Below are positions 9,590 to 55,251 of a DNA stretch of 64,000 bases, piece after piece. Source of the DNA: Candidatus Zixiibacteriota bacterium (GTDB lineage Bacteria; Zixibacteria; MSB-5A5; GN15; FEB-12); contig JAVEYB010000015.1 in NCBI GenBank assembly GCA_034003725.1, forward strand, positions 1 through 64,000, in the 5' to 3' direction. The notes beneath the pieces are model-generated. The model was not told the origin of the DNA, did no database searches, and saw only the letters and a program-made list of their open reading frames with translations. Every line of letters begins with the position of its first letter. The stretch's first letter is position 1. Made by a program: the position numbers and the translations under genes.

Positions 9590-13692
<4,103 letters not shown>

Positions 13693-13696
<4 letters not shown>

Positions 13697-13720
13697 CATG
13701 CAGGCGGTTTCGTCTAAATT
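13693..13720 (+). promoter_or_regulatory. Promoter of the str (rpsL) operon, overlapping the rpoC stop
   Basis: TTGACA (13693-13698) and TAAATT (13715-13720) are separated by 16 bases. The -35 element contains the rpoC stop codon TGA. The next gene is rpsL, 53 bases downstream, so the S12-S7-EF-G genes can be transcribed apart from the polymerase genes. Confidence 0.75.
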
Positions 13721-13772
13721 GCGAGTCTCTTTTGCGTATGCAGCAACAGATGACAGGTAAGCAGGAGAAGTT

Positions 13773-14147
13773 TTGCCGACTATTAACCAGTTGATCCGCA
13801 AGGGCCGCAAGCAGGTCGTTGACAAAAACAAAGTGCCGGCCCTGAATGCGTCGCCGCAGAAGCGGGGCGTGTGCACGCGCGTGTATACGTCGACGCCCAA
13901 GAAGCCGAATTCGGCGCTTCGGAAGGTAGCCCGCGTCCGTCTGACGAACCAGATCGAAGTGACGGCCTACATTCCGGGCGAAGGACACAACCTGCAGGAG
14001 CACTCGATTGTGCTTATTCGCGGCGGTCGTGTGAAGGACCTGCCCGGCGTCCGCTACCATGTCATCCGCGGCACGATGGATACGGCTGGCGTGGCCGAAC
14101 GGAAACGCGGCCGTTCAAAATACGGCACCAAGAAGCCCAAGGCGTAA
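13773..14147 (+). CDS. rpsL: 30S ribosomal protein S12
   Basis: S12 monitors codon-anticodon pairing at the decoding centre. The 124-residue product starts at TTG 13773 after CAGGAG. K43 and K44 in [11 protein letters not shown] and K88-D89 in [13 protein letters not shown] are the residues usual for streptomycin-sensitive ribosomes. It is the first gene of the str operon here, with its own promoter upstream. Confidence 0.98.
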
Positions 14148-14156
14148 GTAGATAAT

Positions 14157-14627
14157 ATGCCGAGAAGAAGAAAGCGACCGAAAAGACCAATCCAGCCGGA
14201 CTTCCGGTATCAGGATACGCTGGTCACACAGTTTGTCTCGTCGTTGATGAAGCGCGGCAAGCGCTCCACCGCCGAGCAGTTGTTTTATGATGCCTGCGAT
14301 CTGATGGAGAAAAAGACGGGCGACAACGCGCTCGACGTTTTCCGCAAGGCGATGAACAACGTTAAGCCGGTGCTCGAGGTGCGCTCCCGCCGTGTCGGTG
14401 GCGCCACCTATCAGGTACCGGTCGAAGTTCGCCAGGATCGCCGCACCGCGCTGGCTATCCGCTGGCTCATCCAGTACGCCACGGCCCGGAACGAGAAGTC
14501 AATGGCCGACAAGCTGGCCGCGGAATTCATGGCCGCCGCCAACAACGATGGTGGATCTGTTAAGAAGAAGGAGGACACTCACAAGATGGCTGAGGCCAAT
14601 AAGGCCTTCGCGCATTTCCGGTGGTAA
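14157..14627 (+). CDS. rpsG: 30S ribosomal protein S7
   Basis: S7 starts assembly of the 30S head and lines the E site. The 156-residue product begins PRRRKRPKRP and ends KAFAHFRW, the typical full-length form. It lies nine bases after rpsL. The next 211 bases before fusA hold only a small six-pair hairpin (14636-14651); I see no clear terminator or promoter there. Confidence 0.98.
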   Translation: MPRRRKRPKRPIQPDFRYQDTLVTQFVSSLMKRGKRSTAEQLFYDACDLMEKKTGDNALDVFRKAMNNVKPVLEVRSRRVGGATYQVPVEVRQDRRTALAIRWLIQYATARNEKSMADKLAAEFMAAANNDGGSVKKKEDTHKMAEANKAFAHFRW

Positions 14628-16932: not shown

Positions 16933-18139
16933 AGCCATGGCGAAGGAGAAGTTTGATCGTTCGAAGCCGCACGTGAACGTTGGCACGATAGGTCACGTGG
17001 ATCACGGGAAGACGACGTTGACGGCGGCGATCACGATGGTGATGGCGAGCCGTACGGGTACGGCGATACGGTCGTTTGATTCGATTGACAATGCTCCGGA
17101 GGAGCGTGAGCGGGGTATCACGATCGCGACGTCTCATGTGGAGTACCAGTCGGCGAATCGTCATTATGCTCATGTGGACTGTCCGGGTCATGCGGATTAC
17201 GTGAAGAACATGATAACGGGTGCGGCGCAGATGGACGGTGCGATACTGGTGGTATCGGCGGCGGACGGTCCGATGCCTCAGACGCGCGAGCACATTTTGT
17301 TGGCTCGTCAGGTGGGTGTTCCGTACATCGTGGTGTTCATGAACAAGGTTGACATGGTTGACGATCCGGAGCTTTTGGATTTGGTGGAGTTAGAGGTCCG
17401 AGACCTGTTGAGTTCGTATGATTTTCCTGGGGATGAGATCCCGGTGATCCGGGGTTCGGCGTTGAAGGCGATGCAGGCGGGAGCGGACGGGAAGACGGAG
17501 GACGATTCGTTCAAGGCGGTATTGGAGTTGGTGGAGGCCTTGGACACGTACGTACCGGAGCCGAAGCGGGAGATGGACAAGCCGTTTTTGATGCCGGTGG
17601 AGGACGTTTTTTCGATTACGGGACGCGGGACGGTGGGGACGGGCCGAATCGAGCGTGGGATCGTGAAGCAGGGAGAGGAAGTGGAGATCGTCGGATTTGG
17701 GGAGACGAAGAAGACGGTGTGCACGGGGGTGGAGATGTTCCGGAAGATCCTTGATGAGGGTCGCGCGGGGGACAACGTGGGATTGTTGCTTCGCGGGGTT
17801 GATAAGGAGGAGCTGGAGCGGGGGATGGTGATCGCGAAGCCGGGTTCGGTGACGCCGCACAAGAAGTTTACGGCGGAGGTGTACGTCTTGACGAAGGAGG
17901 AGGGAGGTCGTCACACGCCGTTTTTCACGGGGTATCGTCCGCAGTTTTATTTTCGGACGACGGACGTGACGGGGGTAGCGCATCTACCGCAGAATGTGGA
18001 GATGGTGATGCCGGGTGACAACATCCAGATGGAAGTGGAGTTGATCACGCCGATCGCGATGGAAGAAGGTCTTCGGTTTGCGATCCGGGAAGGCGGCCGC
18101 ACGATCGGCGCCGGTGTGATCGCCAAGATTGTCGAGTAA
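16933..18139 (+). repeat. Second copy of the tuf repeat (pairs with 1009-2215)
   Basis: About 1.2 kb is duplicated in direct orientation, 15.9 kb apart. By eye the copies match from AGCC just before the ATG to the TAA stop. The flanks differ at once on both sides (CTC versus GAA before; CGAGC versus GGCAG after). The identity therefore stops at the gene borders, as expected from gene conversion between paralogues rather than a recent segmental duplication. Confidence 0.9.
16937..18139 (+). CDS. tuf: Elongation factor Tu, copy 2
   Basis: The 400-residue product is the same as copy 1 at 1013-2215, so both genes add to a single EF-Tu pool. It sits in the str-S10 position, 19 bases after fusA and 18 before rpsJ, the tufA place of classical operons. 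A GGAG ribosome site precedes it. It has the same unusual codon choice as copy 1, in sharp contrast to fusA and rpsJ on either side. Confidence 0.99.
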
Positions 18140-48065: not shown

Positions 48066-49010
48066 ATGGCTAGACGAACCGTAGACAGGATTATACTCGG
48101 CTGGGTCATCCTGCTGATTATAGCGGCTCTCATCGGCGATGTAACGCTGGCAGCCTCTGACGGTGGCCGCACCGCGGCAGACTTCTTACAGATCGGAGTC
48201 GGAGCTCGCGCTGCCGGCATGGGCGGCGCATACACCGCTCTCTCCGAGGGGTCTGAAGCATCCTACTGGAACCCCGCCGGCATGGCTGGCCTGCAAGGCT
48301 ATGAAGTGTCGTTTTCGCACTTCGCCTGGTATCAGGATGTAACCCTCGAGCAGGGTGCATTTGCCTTCGCGCTCAACGAGCGGACCACTCTGGCCGCCTC
48401 CATCATCTATCTGAATTACGGCGACATCAATGGATATGACGCCTCCGACAACCCCATCGGCGAAATCACTGCCTATGACTGGGCCGGTGGAGTCTCCCTG
48501 GGCTATCAGGTCAACGATGACCTGAGCGTTGGCGCCACAGGCAAGTACATCAATCAGAAGTTCGATGACATCTCGGGTTCTGCGTTTGCCGTCGATCTTG
48601 GGGCACGCTACCAGATCGGCCGCTGGACCATCGCTGCCATGGCGGGAAACCTCGGGTCGGCGATGACATTCGACTCGGAAAAGGAGGACCTTCCGTCAAC
48701 GCTCCGCGTTGGTGTTGCCGTCACCGAGTTGATTGGCGGGCTCCGCGCCGCCGTTGAATACGACAACCGTTTCAACGGGGCAAGTGTCCTGCATAATGGG
48801 TTGGAAATGATGTTCTACGACCGCTACTTCCTGCGCACCGGCTACGATGTCGATCTCGATGGTGAGGACCACTCCTTTGACGACGGTATGTCGTTTGGGG
48901 CCGGCGTTCGATTTGGCGTAGCCGAGATCAACTACGCCTACTCCCTGAAGGATCAGTACTCCTCAGAGGATTTGCATCGCTTTTCGATGCTCTTTCACAT
49001 GGGCAATTAA
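48066..49010 (+). CDS. PorV/PorQ-family outer-membrane protein
   Basis: The 314-residue product has a signal segment (about residues 10-30) and the family hallmark FLQIGVGARAAGMGGAYTALSEG with SYWNPAGMA, followed by a small beta-barrel pattern. In Bacteroidetes such proteins shuttle or anchor type IX secretion cargo; in related phyla the role is less clear. No other type IX component is seen in the window. A perfect terminator follows at 49051. Confidence 0.92.
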   Translation: MARRTVDRIILGWVILLIIAALIGDVTLAASDGGRTAADFLQIGVGARAAGMGGAYTALSEGSEASYWNPAGMAGLQGYEVSFSHFAWYQDVTLEQGAFAFALNERTTLAASIIYLNYGDINGYDASDNPIGEITAYDWAGGVSLGYQVNDDLSVGATGKYINQKFDDISGSAFAVDLGARYQIGRWTIAAMAGNLGSAMTFDSEKEDLPSTLRVGVAVTELIGGLRAAVEYDNRFNGASVLHNGLEMMFYDRYFLRTGYDVDLDGEDHSFDDGMSFGAGVRFGVAEINYAYSLKDQYSSEDLHRFSMLFHMGN

Positions 49011-49050
49011 GCCATTTCGGATATCCGGTCAGCGATGATCGGAACTCTTC

Positions 49051-49079
49051 AAAAACCGACCTATTTAGGTCGGTTTTTT
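49051..49079 (+). terminator. Intrinsic terminator after the PorV-like gene
   Basis: AAAAACCGACCTA pairs with TAGGTCGGTTTTT around a three-base loop, with T-run on the plus side and A-run on the other, so it could end transcription in both directions. Confidence 0.93.
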
Positions 49080-49229
49080 CTTATTGTCGAATTGTGACTT
49101 ACGCACAAGTGCGCACCGCACTGCACTCGAACGTGCATATGTTGCGTGATTATGCATATCCGCGGCGTTTGGCATACTGAACAAGGGCGCAATGTCCGAA
49201 TATCTACTCCTTTTTATCCTGTGTAACCT

Positions 49230-49242
49230 ATTGTTTAACAAT
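49230..49242. promoter_or_regulatory. Palindromic candidate enhancer site for a sigma-54 activator
   Basis: ATTGTT-T-AACAAT is a perfect 13-base palindrome, 64 bases upstream of the sigma-54-like promoter. A second inverted repeat, TGCATA/TATGCA, lies about 90 bases further upstream (near 49135-49157). Sites at such distances are typical for NtrC-type activators. The 372 bases between 49011 and 49382 otherwise hold no gene I can support. Confidence 0.4.
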
Positions 49243-49306
49243 CCGTTGCCGATGCCTACGTGATGCCTTTCGGGCGTCTGAAATTGGATCAAGACGGCGG
49301 GAAGGT

Positions 49307-49322
49307 TGGCAATGCATTTGCT
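49307..49322 (+). promoter_or_regulatory. Candidate sigma-54 (-24/-12) promoter of the sugar transferase gene
   Basis: TGGCAA-TGCAT-TTGCT matches TGGCAC-N5-TTGCW at every strongly conserved base, with GG and GC spaced by exactly 12. The expected start point is near 49333, about 50 bases before the ATG at 49383. No good sigma-70 promoter was seen in this gap. Confidence 0.72.
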
Positions 49323-49382
49323 TCTCACATCCCAGAACGAAACGGACGCGTTTTTAGGTAACCATCTCACATTGACAGGATA

Positions 49383-50315
49383 ATGGAACAGAACAACAAC
49401 CAGCTCAATTACTCCGGCGAGCAAACACTCACCCTGAACCGCCGCAACGTCTCCTACGGATACGCGACCGTGCGAGAGGCCGTAGTGCCGCGCTCCGTCG
49501 CGCCGTCGTACGCGCCTGACGTCGCTTTCAAAAGCCGGTTTCTCCTCGCCGAAGTACTTGGATTGTTGTTTGTCGCTTTCTCGACCATGTATATATTCGG
49601 GCTGCCGTCAGTGCTGACCAAGCCGGGCCAGTTCAAGCTCATGATACAGAAAGCGGTGAAACGGACATACGATATTGTCGGGGCCACGGTCGGTCTGCTG
49701 CTGTGCCTGCCGATACTGGTTTTCGTGCCGATTTTCATCAAGCTGGATTCGCGCGGACCTGTCTTTTACACTCAGATGCGGATAGGCATTAATCGTCGTC
49801 GTACCGAACGCCGTTATCACCAGAAGACCGACATCGACAACCGTCGCTCCAACGATCGCCGCAAGGAAGACCTTTTGGGCAAGCCATTCCGTGTAATCAA
49901 GTTTCGCACCATGGTCCAGAATGCCGAGACGAAGAGCGGCCCTGTGTGGGCGACCAAGGACGATCCCCGGATCACTCGGTTGGGCAAGTTCCTGCGGAAG
50001 ACCCGAATCGACGAGATTCCGCAGTTCATAAACGTCCTGAAAGGCGATATGGCACTGGTCGGTCCTCGTCCGGAGCGCCCCACCTTCGTCAAAGACCTCG
50101 CGACGAAGATTGAGGGGTACGAAGAGCGCCTTCGCGTGAAGCCGGGTATCACCGGTCTGGCGCAAGTCGAGTCCGGCTACGATTGTGACATCGATTCGGT
50201 GAAGGACAAGGTCAACTACGACGTGACTTACATTCGCACCATGTCGTTGTGGTCGGATATCAAGATCATGGCCAGGACGGTTGTGGTGGTGTTCACGGGC
50301 AGAGGGGCGTGCTGA
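49383..50315 (+). CDS. Bacterial sugar transferase (undecaprenyl-phosphate sugar-1-phosphate transferase)
   Basis: Enzymes of this type put the first sugar-phosphate on undecaprenyl phosphate to start exopolysaccharide or O-antigen units. The 310-residue product has one hydrophobic span near 50-70, another at about 100-122 and the catalytic domain with FRVIKFRTM, RKTRIDEIPQFINVLKGDM, VGPRPERP and KPGITGLAQV. An Arg-rich insertion (about 139-165) lies between the membrane helix and FRVIKFRTM. It lacks the long multi-span N-terminus of WbaP. UppP, which regenerates the lipid carrier, is encoded at 57972. Confidence 0.93.
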   Translation: MEQNNNQLNYSGEQTLTLNRRNVSYGYATVREAVVPRSVAPSYAPDVAFKSRFLLAEVLGLLFVAFSTMYIFGLPSVLTKPGQFKLMIQKAVKRTYDIVGATVGLLLCLPILVFVPIFIKLDSRGPVFYTQMRIGINRRRTERRYHQKTDIDNRRSNDRRKEDLLGKPFRVIKFRTMVQNAETKSGPVWATKDDPRITRLGKFLRKTRIDEIPQFINVLKGDMALVGPRPERPTFVKDLATKIEGYEERLRVKPGITGLAQVESGYDCDIDSVKDKVNYDVTYIRTMSLWSDIKIMARTVVVVFTGRGAC

Positions 50316-50352
50316 GTTACGTGAACGCTTGAAAGCAATGAGCCAATTTCCG

Positions 50353-50381
50353 AGAGCCGCTTCGCGCGGCTCTTCTTTTTT
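50353..50381 (+). terminator. Intrinsic terminator after the sugar transferase gene
   Basis: AGAGCCGC pairs with GCGGCTCT around TTCGC and is followed by TCTTTTTT. It makes the sugar transferase a single-gene unit with the sigma-54-like promoter. Confidence 0.9.
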
Positions 50382-50395
50382 CGCAGAAATTCAAC

Positions 50396-50424
50396 TTGTA
50401 TCGGCTATGCGATTGATCTACATT
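50396..50424 (+). promoter_or_regulatory. Possible promoter of the PEGA/DUF5683 gene
   Basis: TTGTAT (50396-50401) and TACATT (50419-50424) are 17 bases apart, just after a terminator and 48 bases before the start codon. Confidence 0.5.
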
Positions 50425-50471
50425 TCCGATACTCTTTTTAAGCAGTCACGTAACCGACATACAAAGGGGAT

Positions 50472-51209
50472 ATGTTGTTAAAACGGATTTTGGCGACAGT
50501 CCTGTTCTGCTCGCTTCCCGGTTTGGTGGCGCACGCGCAGACCACGACCGGGTCCGTCACGGTTGAATCAGACCCCGGCGGCGCAGAAGTCGTGCTCAAG
50601 GGGGATGCCACCGTTGCCGGCGTTACTCCCACGACGTTCCGCCAGATGCTGATTGGTCGATACGACGTGACCGTGAAAAAGCGGGGATACGAAACGTATC
50701 GCACGGATGTCGTGCTCGACCCGGCCCGACCGACGCGCCTTGATATCCGGTTGTCGCCCAAGACCCGGCTCAAAGCGGCGGTCCGATCCATGTTTGTACC
50801 CGGATGGGGGCAGCGCTACGGCGATCAGAAGGGAAAGGCCTGGCTGTTTCATGTCCTCGGCGCCGGGTCCATCGCCGCATATCTGATTGCCGATCACAAT
50901 TTCGATATTAAGTACGAAAAGTACGAACGACGACTCGATGAATTCGACGCCGCCGTCGCGGACGGCGCCTCGCGTGAGGAACTCGATAGGCGACTCGATG
51001 CGCTATCGGACGCGCAGGACGAGGCCTTCGATTACGAAGACTATCGACGGATCACGATCGGGGCCGCCATCGGCGTGTGGGGATTGTCGGTCCTCGACGC
51101 ACTGCTGTTTTCTCCCGGTGATCGAACTGCCTTCTCGGTTGAAGGCGTCGACATTCAGCCCGCAGCCGATCTGGATCAGGTCGGTTTGACCCTGTCATAC
51201 TCGTTTTGA
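50472..51209 (+). CDS. PEGA-domain protein with DUF5683-type membrane part
   Basis: The 245-residue product has a signal peptide (cleavage after AHA, about residue 22), a PEGA-type beta domain (about 25-95, with SDPGGAEVVLKG and GRYDVTVKKRGYETY), and then the DUF5683 signature FVPGWGQRYGDQKGKAW with two or so hydrophobic spans. The end SLSYSF suggests an envelope location. Function is unknown. The fibronectin-type lipoprotein gene follows 14 bases later. Confidence 0.85.
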   Translation: MLLKRILATVLFCSLPGLVAHAQTTTGSVTVESDPGGAEVVLKGDATVAGVTPTTFRQMLIGRYDVTVKKRGYETYRTDVVLDPARPTRLDIRLSPKTRLKAAVRSMFVPGWGQRYGDQKGKAWLFHVLGAGSIAAYLIADHNFDIKYEKYERRLDEFDAAVADGASREELDRRLDALSDAQDEAFDYEDYRRITIGAAIGVWGLSVLDALLFSPGDRTAFSVEGVDIQPAADLDQVGLTLSYSF

Positions 51210-51223
51210 GGCGGAGAAGTGTG

Positions 51224-52753
51224 ATGACTCGTACAGCCGTCATTGCAGGCGCCATTGTCGCCCTGACACTGCTCATTTCATGTGACCGTTATATCGATTC
51301 ACGGGATCCGGTTCGCTCTTTGCCCGATGCGCCTCCCGTGCCCACTAATGTTCTCGCGCAATTGAACAGCCGGTCGGTGACGCTCAGTTGGGATATTGAT
51401 AATCCGGCAGCGGTCAGTCGGTATCGTGTTTATCTGGCGACGGACACGGTCCAGGGCTTTACCGTGAAGGACTCGACTGCGCAGACGTCAATCGTGATTG
51501 AGGGACTTGCACTTAACCGTGAGTACTTCTTCGAAGTCGCCGCTGTCGACGGGAACGGCTATGAAGGCCCCCGGTCGGCTACTGTCTCGGCCGTCACGGC
51601 GTTGTTGTCGCTTACCATAAACAACAATGCCCGATACACCAATTCGCGAAACGTGCAGGTACAACTGATTGCGAACAGCGCCGCCACACATGTGTACCTG
51701 TCGGAGGATTCGACGTTTGCCGATGCGGTCGCCCAGACGTTTTCAGCTCAGCGAGGCTTTGAGTTGAGTCCCGGCGATGGCACCAAAATCGTCTTCGGTC
51801 GTTATATCTTCCTCGATGGTTCCGAATCGCAGCAGCCATTGTCCGATTCGATCATCCTCGATACACGTGCACGCATCGATTCGGCCTGGTACCTTCCCGG
51901 TGGGGGAGGAACCTTCACGGCCGGTGACACAATTACGTTTTTTGTCGATGCCGCCGAAGTTGACGGGGAAGCCCAGGTCGTTCTCAGCGGAATCGACCCG
52001 GTGCGGCTGTTTGACGACGGTACGAACGGCGATGTGGCTGCGGGTGACGGCATTTATTCGGCCGAGTGGGTGGTGCCCGGTGATGTTACACTGAACAACG
52101 GATCGGTGGTGGGTGAGTTTACGGATGCCGCCGGCAATGAAGCCGATTTTCTGTCCGATGTCACGTTGACAATATTCAGCGCGCCGTTGCCGGTCCAGTT
52201 GACTCTGGTCGAGCCGGTCTCGAGTTACCAAATGTCCCTCACCTGGAGTCAGGCCGCGTCAGCGGACTTTGCCAGCTACCGCATCTACCGGTCGTCAAGT
52301 GCCACCGTCAGCGACGCTGACCTGTTAGTTGCAACGATCACGAACCGTTCGACGGTGTCGTATACCGATACGACAGTTGCGGCGAGCACGACGTATTACT
52401 ACCGCGTTTACGTCCGTAACAGCCTCGGAATGACCGCTGCCTCCAACACGGCCAGCGCGACCACTCTCGCCAATACGGCGCCCGCGGCTGTGGTGCTGGC
52501 AGGTGCGCTGTCCGATGCCACCACGGTCAGGCTGACTTGGACGCAAAATGCCGACGCCGACTTCCAATCGTACCGGATTTATCGGGGGAATTCATCCGGC
52601 GTCAGCAGCTCTGACGAGTTGATCGACATTATCACTTCCCGGACCTCGATTTCCGCCACGTTCGGTCTGACCACCAACCGCTGGTACCGGGTGTACGTGT
52701 TCGACAAACAGGGTCTTTCCACAGGATCCAACGCTATCCAGATTACGGATTGA
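51224..52753 (+). CDS. Lipoprotein with fibronectin type III domains
   Basis: The 509-residue product has a signal with lipobox LTLLISC. Three fibronectin-III-like units are visible, starting with VTLSWDIDNPAAVSRYRVYLATD, SLTWSQAASADFASYRIYRSS and RLTWTQNADADFQSYRIYRGN. Between the first and second lies a region like those that measure acceleration or drug-type propellers: GDTITFFVDAAEVDGEA and DDGTNGDVAAGDGIYSAEW. ATG 51224 with GGAG upstream is preferred to TTG 51206. It is probably surface-exposed and binds something at the envelope. Confidence 0.82.
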   Translation: MTRTAVIAGAIVALTLLISCDRYIDSRDPVRSLPDAPPVPTNVLAQLNSRSVTLSWDIDNPAAVSRYRVYLATDTVQGFTVKDSTAQTSIVIEGLALNREYFFEVAAVDGNGYEGPRSATVSAVTALLSLTINNNARYTNSRNVQVQLIANSAATHVYLSEDSTFADAVAQTFSAQRGFELSPGDGTKIVFGRYIFLDGSESQQPLSDSIILDTRARIDSAWYLPGGGGTFTAGDTITFFVDAAEVDGEAQVVLSGIDPVRLFDDGTNGDVAAGDGIYSAEWVVPGDVTLNNGSVVGEFTDAAGNEADFLSDVTLTIFSAPLPVQLTLVEPVSSYQMSLTWSQAASADFASYRIYRSSSATVSDADLLVATITNRSTVSYTDTTVAASTTYYYRVYVRNSLGMTAASNTASATTLANTAPAAVVLAGALSDATTVRLTWTQNADADFQSYRIYRGNSSGVSSSDELIDIITSRTSISATFGLTTNRWYRVYVFDKQGLSTGSNAIQITD

Positions 52754-52765
52754 TCGGGCCGGACT

Positions 52766-53632
52766 ATGACCGTTCTGCGGAATCTGAACCATTTCATTAC
52801 CCTGTTTCTGGAGACTTTTCGCCAGTTCGGTCGGTGGCGCATTTGGAGCCTCCTGGCGGCCTATTTCGCCATACAATGGATCATCCTCTACGCCCATTAT
52901 GATTTCCTCTCTCCGGCCTTCTATGGACTCGTGCAGGCCTGGCTGGGACTGGCCCAGGCCCTCGGGCTGATCACCGGACAGGAACGAACCGTTTTCGGTC
53001 ATTACCCGGGGCAGTTTCTGGTGCTGCCGACCATATTCGGGTGGGCACGCACGCTGCTCGGCGTGATAGTAGAAGGGCTGGTGCTCGGAATGGTTGCAAG
53101 CATGTTCCGCAACATCCATCTGCGCAGCGCCCGAGAACCGGAACTCGCCCTCTCTTCGGTCGTCAAGCTGTGGCTGCATCTCGCGGTCATTTGGGTAGTC
53201 ATCAACGGCATAATCCTTGTCCTTAACCTGTTTGTTCCCGAGCTGTTGAAGGCCTGGATGATCGGTTCCCCCCGTCGGCAGCAGGTGATTGAGTTCATTA
53301 TCATGCCGGGGCTGCATTCTCTCACTCTGGGCCTGTTGTTTTTCGCTATACCATCGGTCGTGCTCTATCGCGAGGATGCGGTACGTAGTATGGGCCGATC
53401 TGTTCGGCTGTTTCTGCGCCGGCCGTTCACCTCCTTTTTCCTCGCCGTGGCCGTCCTGTTTCTGCCGATTCTGGTGGCGTCGATCGCCACCCGAAGTCAG
53501 GATATAATCGCCAAGTTTCGGCCCGAGTTGGTCTTTTGGGTCTTGTCCGCCGGCTTGGTGCTGGAGATGATCGCGTATTTCTTCTGGATGGGTACCTCCA
53601 CCAGGTATCTGTACGACCTTGTCGACGAATAG
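52766..53632 (+). CDS. Multi-span membrane protein of unknown function
   Basis: The 288-residue product shows about six hydrophobic spans, including FAIQWIILYAHYDF, LWLHLAVIWVVINGIILVL and FFLAVAVLFLPILVASIAT. I do not recognise the family. It starts 12 bases after the lipoprotein gene and is probably in the same operon as the PEGA protein. The 188 bases after it hold no clear promoter. Confidence 0.78.
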   Translation: MTVLRNLNHFITLFLETFRQFGRWRIWSLLAAYFAIQWIILYAHYDFLSPAFYGLVQAWLGLAQALGLITGQERTVFGHYPGQFLVLPTIFGWARTLLGVIVEGLVLGMVASMFRNIHLRSAREPELALSSVVKLWLHLAVIWVVINGIILVLNLFVPELLKAWMIGSPRRQQVIEFIIMPGLHSLTLGLLFFAIPSVVLYREDAVRSMGRSVRLFLRRPFTSFFLAVAVLFLPILVASIATRSQDIIAKFRPELVFWVLSAGLVLEMIAYFFWMGTSTRYLYDLVDE

Positions 53633-53820: not shown

Positions 53821-55251
53821 ATGAAAAACATACTGCTGGTTGACGACGACAGAGAGGTATCGCAATCACTGGCGAACCTGTTCGATCCCGAGAAGTTCAC
53901 GTTCGAGTTTCTCGAGGACGGGGCCGACGTTTCCCACTTTCTTTCGGAGACGGAAAACATCGACCTCGTAATGCTTGATGTAAACCTCCCGACTCTTTCG
54001 GGGCTCGACGTGCTCAAGCAGATCAAACAGATCGACGGCGATATCCCCGTGATTATGATCTCGGGGTTCGTATCGACCGAGAACGCGATTGAGGCGATGC
54101 GGGAAGGGGCCTACGAGTATCTGACCAAGCCGTTTCAGATCGAGAAACTGATCGACACGGTCAATAAGGCCTGTGGTTTCCATTCTCATCTTCGCCCTCA
54201 GCAAGTCCCGGTCGCGGAGCCGGGCAGGGTAGAGGGGCTCGACGAGATTGTCGGCCGCTCGCCGGAGATTGTCGAAATCGCCAAACTGATCGGCCAGGTC
54301 GCCAAGACCGACGCCGCTGTACTGATATTCGGCGAGTCCGGCACCGGCAAGGAATTGGTGGCTCGCGCCATACACCGCAATTCCAAGCGAAAGAACAACG
54401 CGTTTTTGTCCGTCAACTGCGCCGCGCTGACCGAGACTTTGTTGGAGTCCGAGCTGTTCGGGCACGAAAAGGGCGCCTTCACCGGCGCATATTACAAGCG
54501 GATCGGAAAATTCGAGCAGGCCGACGCCGGTACGCTGTTTCTCGATGAAATCGGCGATATGAGCATGCTGACGCAGTCCAAACTGCTGCGCGTTCTGCAG
54601 GAAAAGCAGTTCGAGCGAGTCGGCGGCAACGAATCGATCAATGTCGACGTCCGAATAATCGCCGCTACCAACAAATCGCTGGTTCAGTGTATGAAAGACG
54701 GCTCCTTCCGTGTGGACTTGTTCTACCGCCTGAAGGTTGTGTCCGTTTACATACCACCGCTGCGCGATCGCCGCTCCGATATACCGTTGCTCATCGACTA
54801 CTTCATGAACAAGTTTTCCGCGCAGCTGGGCGTTCCGGTCAAGCAGGTTTCCAAGAAGGCCATGCAGGCGCTGGGCCGATACCACTGGCCGGGCAATGTT
54901 CGCGAACTCGATAACAACGTCCACACCGCGATGGTGATGTCGAAAAACGAGGCGCTCCAGCCGGAAGACTTCCCGTCACTGGCCGAAGAAAGCCCCCGCG
55001 TCGAACTCGATTTGTCGGAGTTGCAGGAAGACTATTTCGAAACCTTCAAGAAGATCGTGGATCCCATAATGCCGCGCCTCATCGGTAACTCGCCGGGGCA
55101 GATATACCACTTCCTGAATTCGGCGCTGGAGCGGGCCATCATCTCGTCGTGCTTGAAACACTTCGACGGGAACCAGGTCAAGACCTCGGAAACACTCGGG
55201 ATTTCGCGCAATACGCTACGCGATCGTATCGCCAAATACTCTATCTATTGA
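53821..55251 (+). CDS. Sigma-54-dependent response regulator (NtrC family)
   Basis: The 476-residue product has a receiver domain (D8-D9-D10, phosphoacceptor D53 in VMLDVNLP, K in YLTKPF), an AAA+ domain with Walker A GESGTGKE near residue 172 and the sigma-54 loop GAFTGA, and a Fis-type helix-turn-helix at the end (TSETLGISRNTLRDRIAKY). No sensor kinase gene is next to it. Two sigma-54-like promoters lie 4-6 kb upstream (48012 and 49307), so envelope genes are possible targets. Confidence 0.95.
   Translation: MKNILLVDDDREVSQSLANLFDPEKFTFEFLEDGADVSHFLSETENIDLVMLDVNLPTLSGLDVLKQIKQIDGDIPVIMISGFVSTENAIEAMREGAYEYLTKPFQIEKLIDTVNKACGFHSHLRPQQVPVAEPGRVEGLDEIVGRSPEIVEIAKLIGQVAKTDAAVLIFGESGTGKELVARAIHRNSKRKNNAFLSVNCAALTETLLESELFGHEKGAFTGAYYKRIGKFEQADAGTLFLDEIGDMSMLTQSKLLRVLQEKQFERVGGNESINVDVRIIAATNKSLVQCMKDGSFRVDLFYRLKVVSVYIPPLRDRRSDIPLLIDYFMNKFSAQLGVPVKQVSKKAMQALGRYHWPGNVRELDNNVHTAMVMSKNEALQPEDFPSLAEESPRVELDLSELQEDYFETFKKIVDPIMPRLIGNSPGQIYHFLNSALERAIISSCLKHFDGNQVKTSETLGISRNTLRDRIAKYSIY

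Follow-up and report, generated by a model that had tools for sequence, protein, structure and literature searches.

A conserved predicted sigma-54 promoter with a putative upstream enhancer at a single-gene sugar transferase unit in Zixibacteria, and a candidate NtrC-type activator

The window analysed here, a whole stretch of 64,000 nucleotides, contains a sugar transferase gene at 49383–50315, situated within a cluster of genes that are all encoded on the plus strand. The upstream neighbour (48066–49010) encodes a PorV/PorQ-family outer-membrane protein (NCBIfam PorV_fam, 194.6 bits, cut-off 90), is syntenic in most relatives and forms a separate unit, closed by an intrinsic terminator at 49051–49078 (plus strand) with a 12-pair stem and a T-run. 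A likely ribosome-binding site, CAGGA, is read at 49376–49380 (plus strand), and an intrinsic terminator with a 9-pair stem and a T-run ends the transferase unit at 50352–50382 (plus strand). Further downstream lie the conserved cluster genes for a PEGA/DUF5683 protein (50472–51209), which has no sigma-54-like site upstream, for a fibronectin type III lipoprotein-like protein (51206–52753), and for a syntenic membrane protein of unknown family (52766–53632) with no match in Pfam or NCBIfam. Next comes a gene for an NtrC-type activator (53821–55251), starting 3.5 kb past the end of the transferase gene. Across Zixibacteria, these genes retain the order GH57–PorV–transferase–PEGA–fn3–membrane protein–activator. 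T-run hairpins are found on both sides of the transferase gene in most orthologous loci; therefore, the gene constitutes a conserved single-gene unit. Within 48900–50600, nothing scores above the gathering threshold of any Rfam family. The arrangement of a sigma-54 element, two terminators and an activator gene around the transferase, as reported by the first-pass annotation from the sequence of the window, is confirmed. Elsewhere in the window, 1013–2215 and 16937–18139 are two identical EF-Tu genes; duplication of tuf is usual.

The transferase is a monotopic phosphoglycosyl transferase of 310 residues (Pfam Bac_transf, E = 2.7e-65, over the cut-off), homologous to the structures of WbaP and PglC. 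The catalytic Asp–Glu dyad (D210 and E211) is invariant in 41 sequences. Against the exopolysaccharide family TIGR03025, the enzyme scores 293.5 bits, marginally below the cut-off of 295.55. An Arg-rich insert, NRRRxxRR...RRxxxRR, occupies residues 136–166 (49788–49880, plus strand) between RVG and GKPF, and appears in the structure model as a low-confidence loop flanked by two strands. The insert is conserved across Zixibacteria and also occurs in relatives from Krumholzibacteriota, Latescibacterota and KSB1, but it is absent in other relatives; a role in binding a lipid or an anionic ligand is conceivable. Only one other such enzyme exists in the genome (C7:24181), with 538 residues, approximately 4 kb from a Wza-like gene.

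Upstream of the transferase gene, the −24/−12 element recognised by the first-pass annotation, TTGGCAATGCATTTGCT, is located at 49306–49322 (plus strand), with the GG-N10-GC spacing required for sigma-54. The exact pattern TTGGCAR-N4-TTTGCT has a single copy in the 3.73-Mb genome, namely this element, and a reversed-pattern control for YTGGCAN5TTTGCT gave 0 matches in the genome. With a matrix trained on relatives only, the window being left out, the element scores 23.0 bits, compared with 11.5 bits for the second-best site in the 64 kb and 8.1–15.6 bits for shuffled windows. Matches with at most two mismatches are no commoner in the 64 kb than in shuffles, and a lone match of this kind would not exceed chance; the element is significant because it is conserved among relatives. 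The best orthologs place the genome near candidate division GN15/Zixibacteria. Upstream regions of orthologous transferase genes were taken from public contigs and 60 relatives, and 36 distinct Zixibacteria regions were left after the removal of duplicates and other phyla. All 36 carry GGCA-N5-YTTGCT, while the looser TGG[CA]-N7-TTGC is present in 40 of 49 upstream regions, against approximately 1% expected per region by chance. The distance from promoter to gene is 25–134 bp in the regions carrying the strict form. In the majority of the relative loci scanned (approximately 19.5 kb each), the transferase promoter is the sole outstanding sigma-54 site; it is still the top site in the two most divergent loci (L254 and L256), but weaker. 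No such promoter was found upstream of the related transferases of Krumholzibacteriota and Latescibacterota. In addition, the genome carries one rpoN gene (Sigma54_DBD, E = 6.2e-58), which excludes the absence of rpoN named by the first-pass annotation as a refuting condition. The predicted transcription start, derived from sigma-54 geometry, is at 49333 (plus strand), approximately 12 bases past the −12 GC. A sigma-54 reading of this promoter is thus strongly supported at the level of sequence.

The upstream regions of the relatives also share a palindrome, TGCGCAA-N4-TTGCA, followed four to six bases on by TATG. Of 35 regions, 33 have the pattern GCA-N5-[TC]TGC[AG] at 170–230 bp upstream of the −24 GG, against 0.25% per region in shuffles; in most of them, the distance to the −24 element is confined to 179–218 bp. 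By this pattern, the other two regions have no enhancer. In the window, the whole putative enhancer spans 49110–49156 on the plus strand and comprises two copies. Copy 1, TGCGCACCGCACTGCA (49110–49125), which does not appear in the first-pass annotation, matches the conserved palindrome; it starts 198 bp and its GCA core lies 195 bp upstream of the −24 GG. Copy 2, an array of half-sites (GTGCATATGTTGCG...TATGCA, 49133–49156), has the same half-sites with a spacing one base shorter, and the array is common to a locus of the same genus (L002). Two inverted repeats had previously been proposed as enhancers; the distal one (approximately 49133–49156) overlaps the conserved enhancer, whereas the proximal one (ATTGTTTAACAAT, 49230–49242) is a real repeat without a conserved counterpart in relatives and was rejected as a conserved element. 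Between −140 and −5, no shared word beats shuffles. The relatives contain 40 further strict matches to the enhancer, of which only three have TGG[CA]-N7-TTGC nearby, approximately the chance level; one of these three led to the RNA locus described below. In the window's own genome, a sigma-54-like site on the minus strand of C1 (L351, approximately position 2010) has an enhancer-like palindrome 166 bp upstream and precedes a gene whose secreted product carries a sorting-type domain at its C-terminus. As a third candidate target, this site is within chance and was set aside.

The product of 53821–55251 contains a receiver, an AAA+ domain and a Fis-type helix-turn-helix by Pfam, and the GAFTGA motif, Walker A and a predicted phosphorylation site (Asp53) are read from the sequence, in agreement with the NtrC-type activator originally noted 3.5 kb downstream. 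Of 61 genomes, 54 have exactly one ortholog of the activator (59–94% identity); it is more conserved than its cluster neighbours and has a near-invariant recognition helix. In relatives, it is usually encoded 4–6 kb downstream of the transferase on the same strand. Both genes are found in 49 genomes and neither in four, while three and five genomes have one only (Fisher p = 0.007). Most of these exceptions are short contigs or incomplete genomes; the activator genes without a transferase in G025, G045, G058 and G049 are at contig ends, and an apparent separation in G057, where activator fragments at both places look like an assembly or rearrangement break, was not used. G030 is a real exception, in which the activator is kept and the transferase was not found in its single contig; either the activator has other work there or the assembly (84% complete) is incomplete. 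At this locus (L245), the activator, fn3 and membrane-protein genes are retained, and the transferase, PorV and GH57 genes are replaced by unrelated upstream genes, with no outstanding sigma-54 site in the scan. Such a locus offers a natural test of the activator's other roles. The genome of the window has approximately 24 genes with a sigma-54 activator domain, and within the window the activator gene has no gene for a cognate kinase next to it. Synteny, GAFTGA and the Fis-type helix-turn-helix point to the 53821 product as the best candidate and likely activator of the transferase unit, as first suggested. Assignments to two named types were rejected: the product scores 469.1 bits against the NCBIfam equivalog for the strict nitrogen regulator NR(I) NtrC (cut-off 558.6) and 394 bits against that for PrsR (cut-off 502.6). 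The over-cut-off PrsR of a relative is 36% identical to it.

Comparison among the relatives shows that the predicted promoter, the enhancer, the single-gene architecture and the activator gene in the cluster are conserved. Taken together, the transferase gene probably forms a single-gene sigma-54 unit, in which the NtrC-type activator encoded at 53821 would bind the palindromes at 49110–49156 to open the promoter. Sigma-54 RNA polymerase would be held as a closed complex at 49306–49322, and the activator would occupy the palindromes through its Fis-type helix-turn-helix. Phosphorylation of the receiver, presumably at Asp53, would lead to activator assembly, and the assembled activator would loop over approximately 180–200 bp of DNA. 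Subsequently, the GAFTGA loop and the ATPase of the activator would drive promoter opening, so that the transferase could be made and could form the lipid-linked sugar with which a surface glycan begins. This circuit is supported by the promoter in 36 of 36 regions, the enhancer in 33 of 35, the terminators, the synteny and co-occurrence of the activator, its near-invariant helix and the presence of rpoN; the weight on the other side comes from the approximately 24 activators, any of which may be able to bind, from G030, from the two regions of 35 without the enhancer and from the lack of an adjacent kinase. We infer the activator–enhancer pairing, the phosphorylation, the looping and the surface glycan as output; for the pairing, the reason is the exceptions to co-occurrence, of which G030 is a real one. 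For sigma-54 control of a stand-alone transferase gene, as originally proposed, the footprint, the enhancer and the terminators all speak in favour. The accompanying idea, that the enzyme begins exopolysaccharide and that a lone phosphorylation signal would switch the polymer on, is more tentative, as the genome has a second transferase elsewhere and no kinase gene adjoins the activator in the window.

It is extremely improbable that the −24/−12 and enhancer matches are coincidental and that the transferase gene is transcribed from a sigma-70 promoter. Alone, a single match with mismatches allowed would indeed carry no significance in 64 kb, but the fixed layout recurs in every distinct relative region, and a sequence scan of the intergenic region 49080–49382 found no sigma-70-like promoter; this reading is strongly disfavoured. 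An unlikely alternative retains the sigma-54 dependence and assigns the enhancer to another activator, for example a PrsR-like one, with the 53821 activator controlling something else. The approximately 24 activator genes of the genome leave room for it, as does G030 with its 53821-type activator and no transferase. Furthermore, about nine of the 61 genomes encode a PrsK-like kinase, in several cases in the same cluster as the transferase. In one of these loci, L257, positions 10976–14447 encode a PrsK-like kinase of 287.6 bits (cut-off 300) together with a PrsR over its cut-off, inserted after the membrane-protein gene and before the 53821-type activator, so that both regulators can coexist. 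However, most enhancer-bearing genomes have no PrsK-like kinase while the 53821 type is nearly universal, the recognition helix of the latter is conserved to the same degree as the enhancer, and the enhancer is present and unchanged where a PrsK-like kinase coexists (L013 and L014). No PrsK over the cut-off occurs in the window's genome, where the best match has 105.7 bits against 300. Exosortase is found in 53 of 61 genomes independently of the transferase unit, occurring without the unit in G001 and G027 and being absent beside it in G010, G014 and G036. Membership of the unit in the XrtA/PEP-CTERM regulatory system was therefore rejected, given the PrsK and PrsR scores below their cut-offs and an exosortase distribution that does not track the unit.

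Two further proposals concern the reach of the activator and the nature of the glycan. One of the other enhancer matches (L178) precedes a histidine kinase gene, and the same locus exists in relatives. Between its sigma-54-like site and the kinase gene lies an RNA-like element of approximately 80 nt, GGGAGUGGUG...CACCUGACGUUAGAGUCGGGCAUCCCCCCUCC...CACUCCC, ahead of two histidine-kinase genes; it is near-identical in five Zixibacteria genomes, one of which (G002) belongs to the genus of the window, and diverged in a sixth. Copies are located on the plus strand in L282 (1000–1070) and L284 (approximately 960–1035) and on the minus strand in L283, L285/L295 and L289, and the diverged copy is in L286. 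The predicted fold has an outer stem around two hairpins and a C-rich strand, with two base pairs changed on both sides, and there is no credible Rfam match. The activator may run a small regulon consisting of the transferase and this structured small RNA, an unproven second target; we place this idea only a little short of an even chance. It draws on the occurrence of the RNA behind a sigma-54-like site in six relatives, and on the palindrome 151–176 bp upstream of its −24 element; the strict pattern finds this palindrome in four of six, against a chance level of 0.7% per region, and a relaxed spacer finds it in six of six. Against this, the relaxed pattern was chosen after the sequences had been viewed, the first base of the −24 element is often C or A, the RNA is present in few genomes, and approximately 1.2 Mb of the own genome, about a third of it, contains no match. 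Somewhat more speculatively, an envelope-building switch common to the whole phylum could be organised around the activator, with the transferase and the undescribed RNA as its sigma-54 targets, if not others as well, and one of the two histidine kinases behind the RNA would then be the activator's missing kinase. As for the product of the transferase, it is somewhat less likely than not that the enzyme starts something different from exopolysaccharide, for instance a protein glycan or a lipopolysaccharide-like anchor: the gene lies outside any polysaccharide gene cluster and adjoins the PorV-family gene, and it is the second transferase that lies near the Wza-like gene, yet the top NCBIfam match of the enzyme is the exopolysaccharide family, slightly below its cut-off.

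The closest described design to the probable single-gene circuit is the PEP-CTERM cis-regulatory motif pair with PrsK/PrsR in Proteobacteria (Haft 2006, PMC1569441). In Aquincola, RpoN-dependent pepA has been tested, and a sugar transferase gene adjoins prsK-prsR (PMC9850573). Like the Zixibacteria unit, the PEP-CTERM pair involves single-gene units in large intergenic gaps, a sigma-54 motif, an NtrC-type response regulator, an upstream activator motif that is sometimes repeated, and a link to exopolysaccharide, which is putative in Zixibacteria. In Zixibacteria, however, the transferase's own gene is the putative target, the candidate activator differs from PrsR, and the enhancer reads TGCGCAA-N4-TTGCA, whereas the PEP-CTERM motif ends in TTTACA; the spacing is approximately 180–200 bp, compared with approximately 63. 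In Burkholderia cenocepacia, exopolysaccharide is under NtrC-dependent control (PMC5491218), and the Bep exopolysaccharide of Burkholderia is controlled by RpoN/BerB (PMC9684580). As proposed for Zixibacteria, both place polysaccharide genes under sigma-54 and an enhancer-binding protein. These systems reportedly act on polysaccharide clusters or globally, whereas in Zixibacteria the transferase gene stands alone and unlinked, as a unit of its own.

In the case of EpsW–EpsZ in Myxococcus, an initiating transferase is controlled by a two-component signal (PMC12802240). There, as proposed for Zixibacteria, the initiating transferase is the control point of the polysaccharide, but control is post-translational via protein contact, whereas it would be transcriptional in Zixibacteria. 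For the RNA/kinase locus, QseE/QseF (GlrR) and the small RNA GlmY provide a comparison, with a sigma-54 small-RNA promoter before a histidine kinase gene (PMC8745638, PMC6075780). Activator sites lie upstream of the GlmY promoter, as the putative enhancer does at the Zixibacteria locus, and GlmY is tied to cell-envelope supply; the Zixibacteria RNA differs in having no Rfam match and in its candidate activator, which is encoded elsewhere in the genome. If the envelope switch exists, it would be a counterpart of the GlmY–QseEGF circuit among bacteria of which few have been cultured.

The literature searched describes neither this enhancer nor this activator group, and no sigma-54 unit made up of a lone transferase gene. 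Government of the bacterial exterior by sigma-54 is a general theme (PMC3162934), and the present results would extend it to Zixibacteria, a poorly known phylum, through an enhancer and a type of activator that were not found in that literature. The circuit would place the control of a surface glycan at the committing enzyme, and it is testable and complete from sequence, comprising an enhancer, a promoter, one target gene and a candidate activator, conserved across the phylum. Outside this phylum, at a Krumholzibacteriota locus without the Zixibacteria promoter (L018, 5821–10285), a related transferase gene is directly followed by genes for a histidine kinase and an NtrC-type activator (AtoS/AtoC-like).
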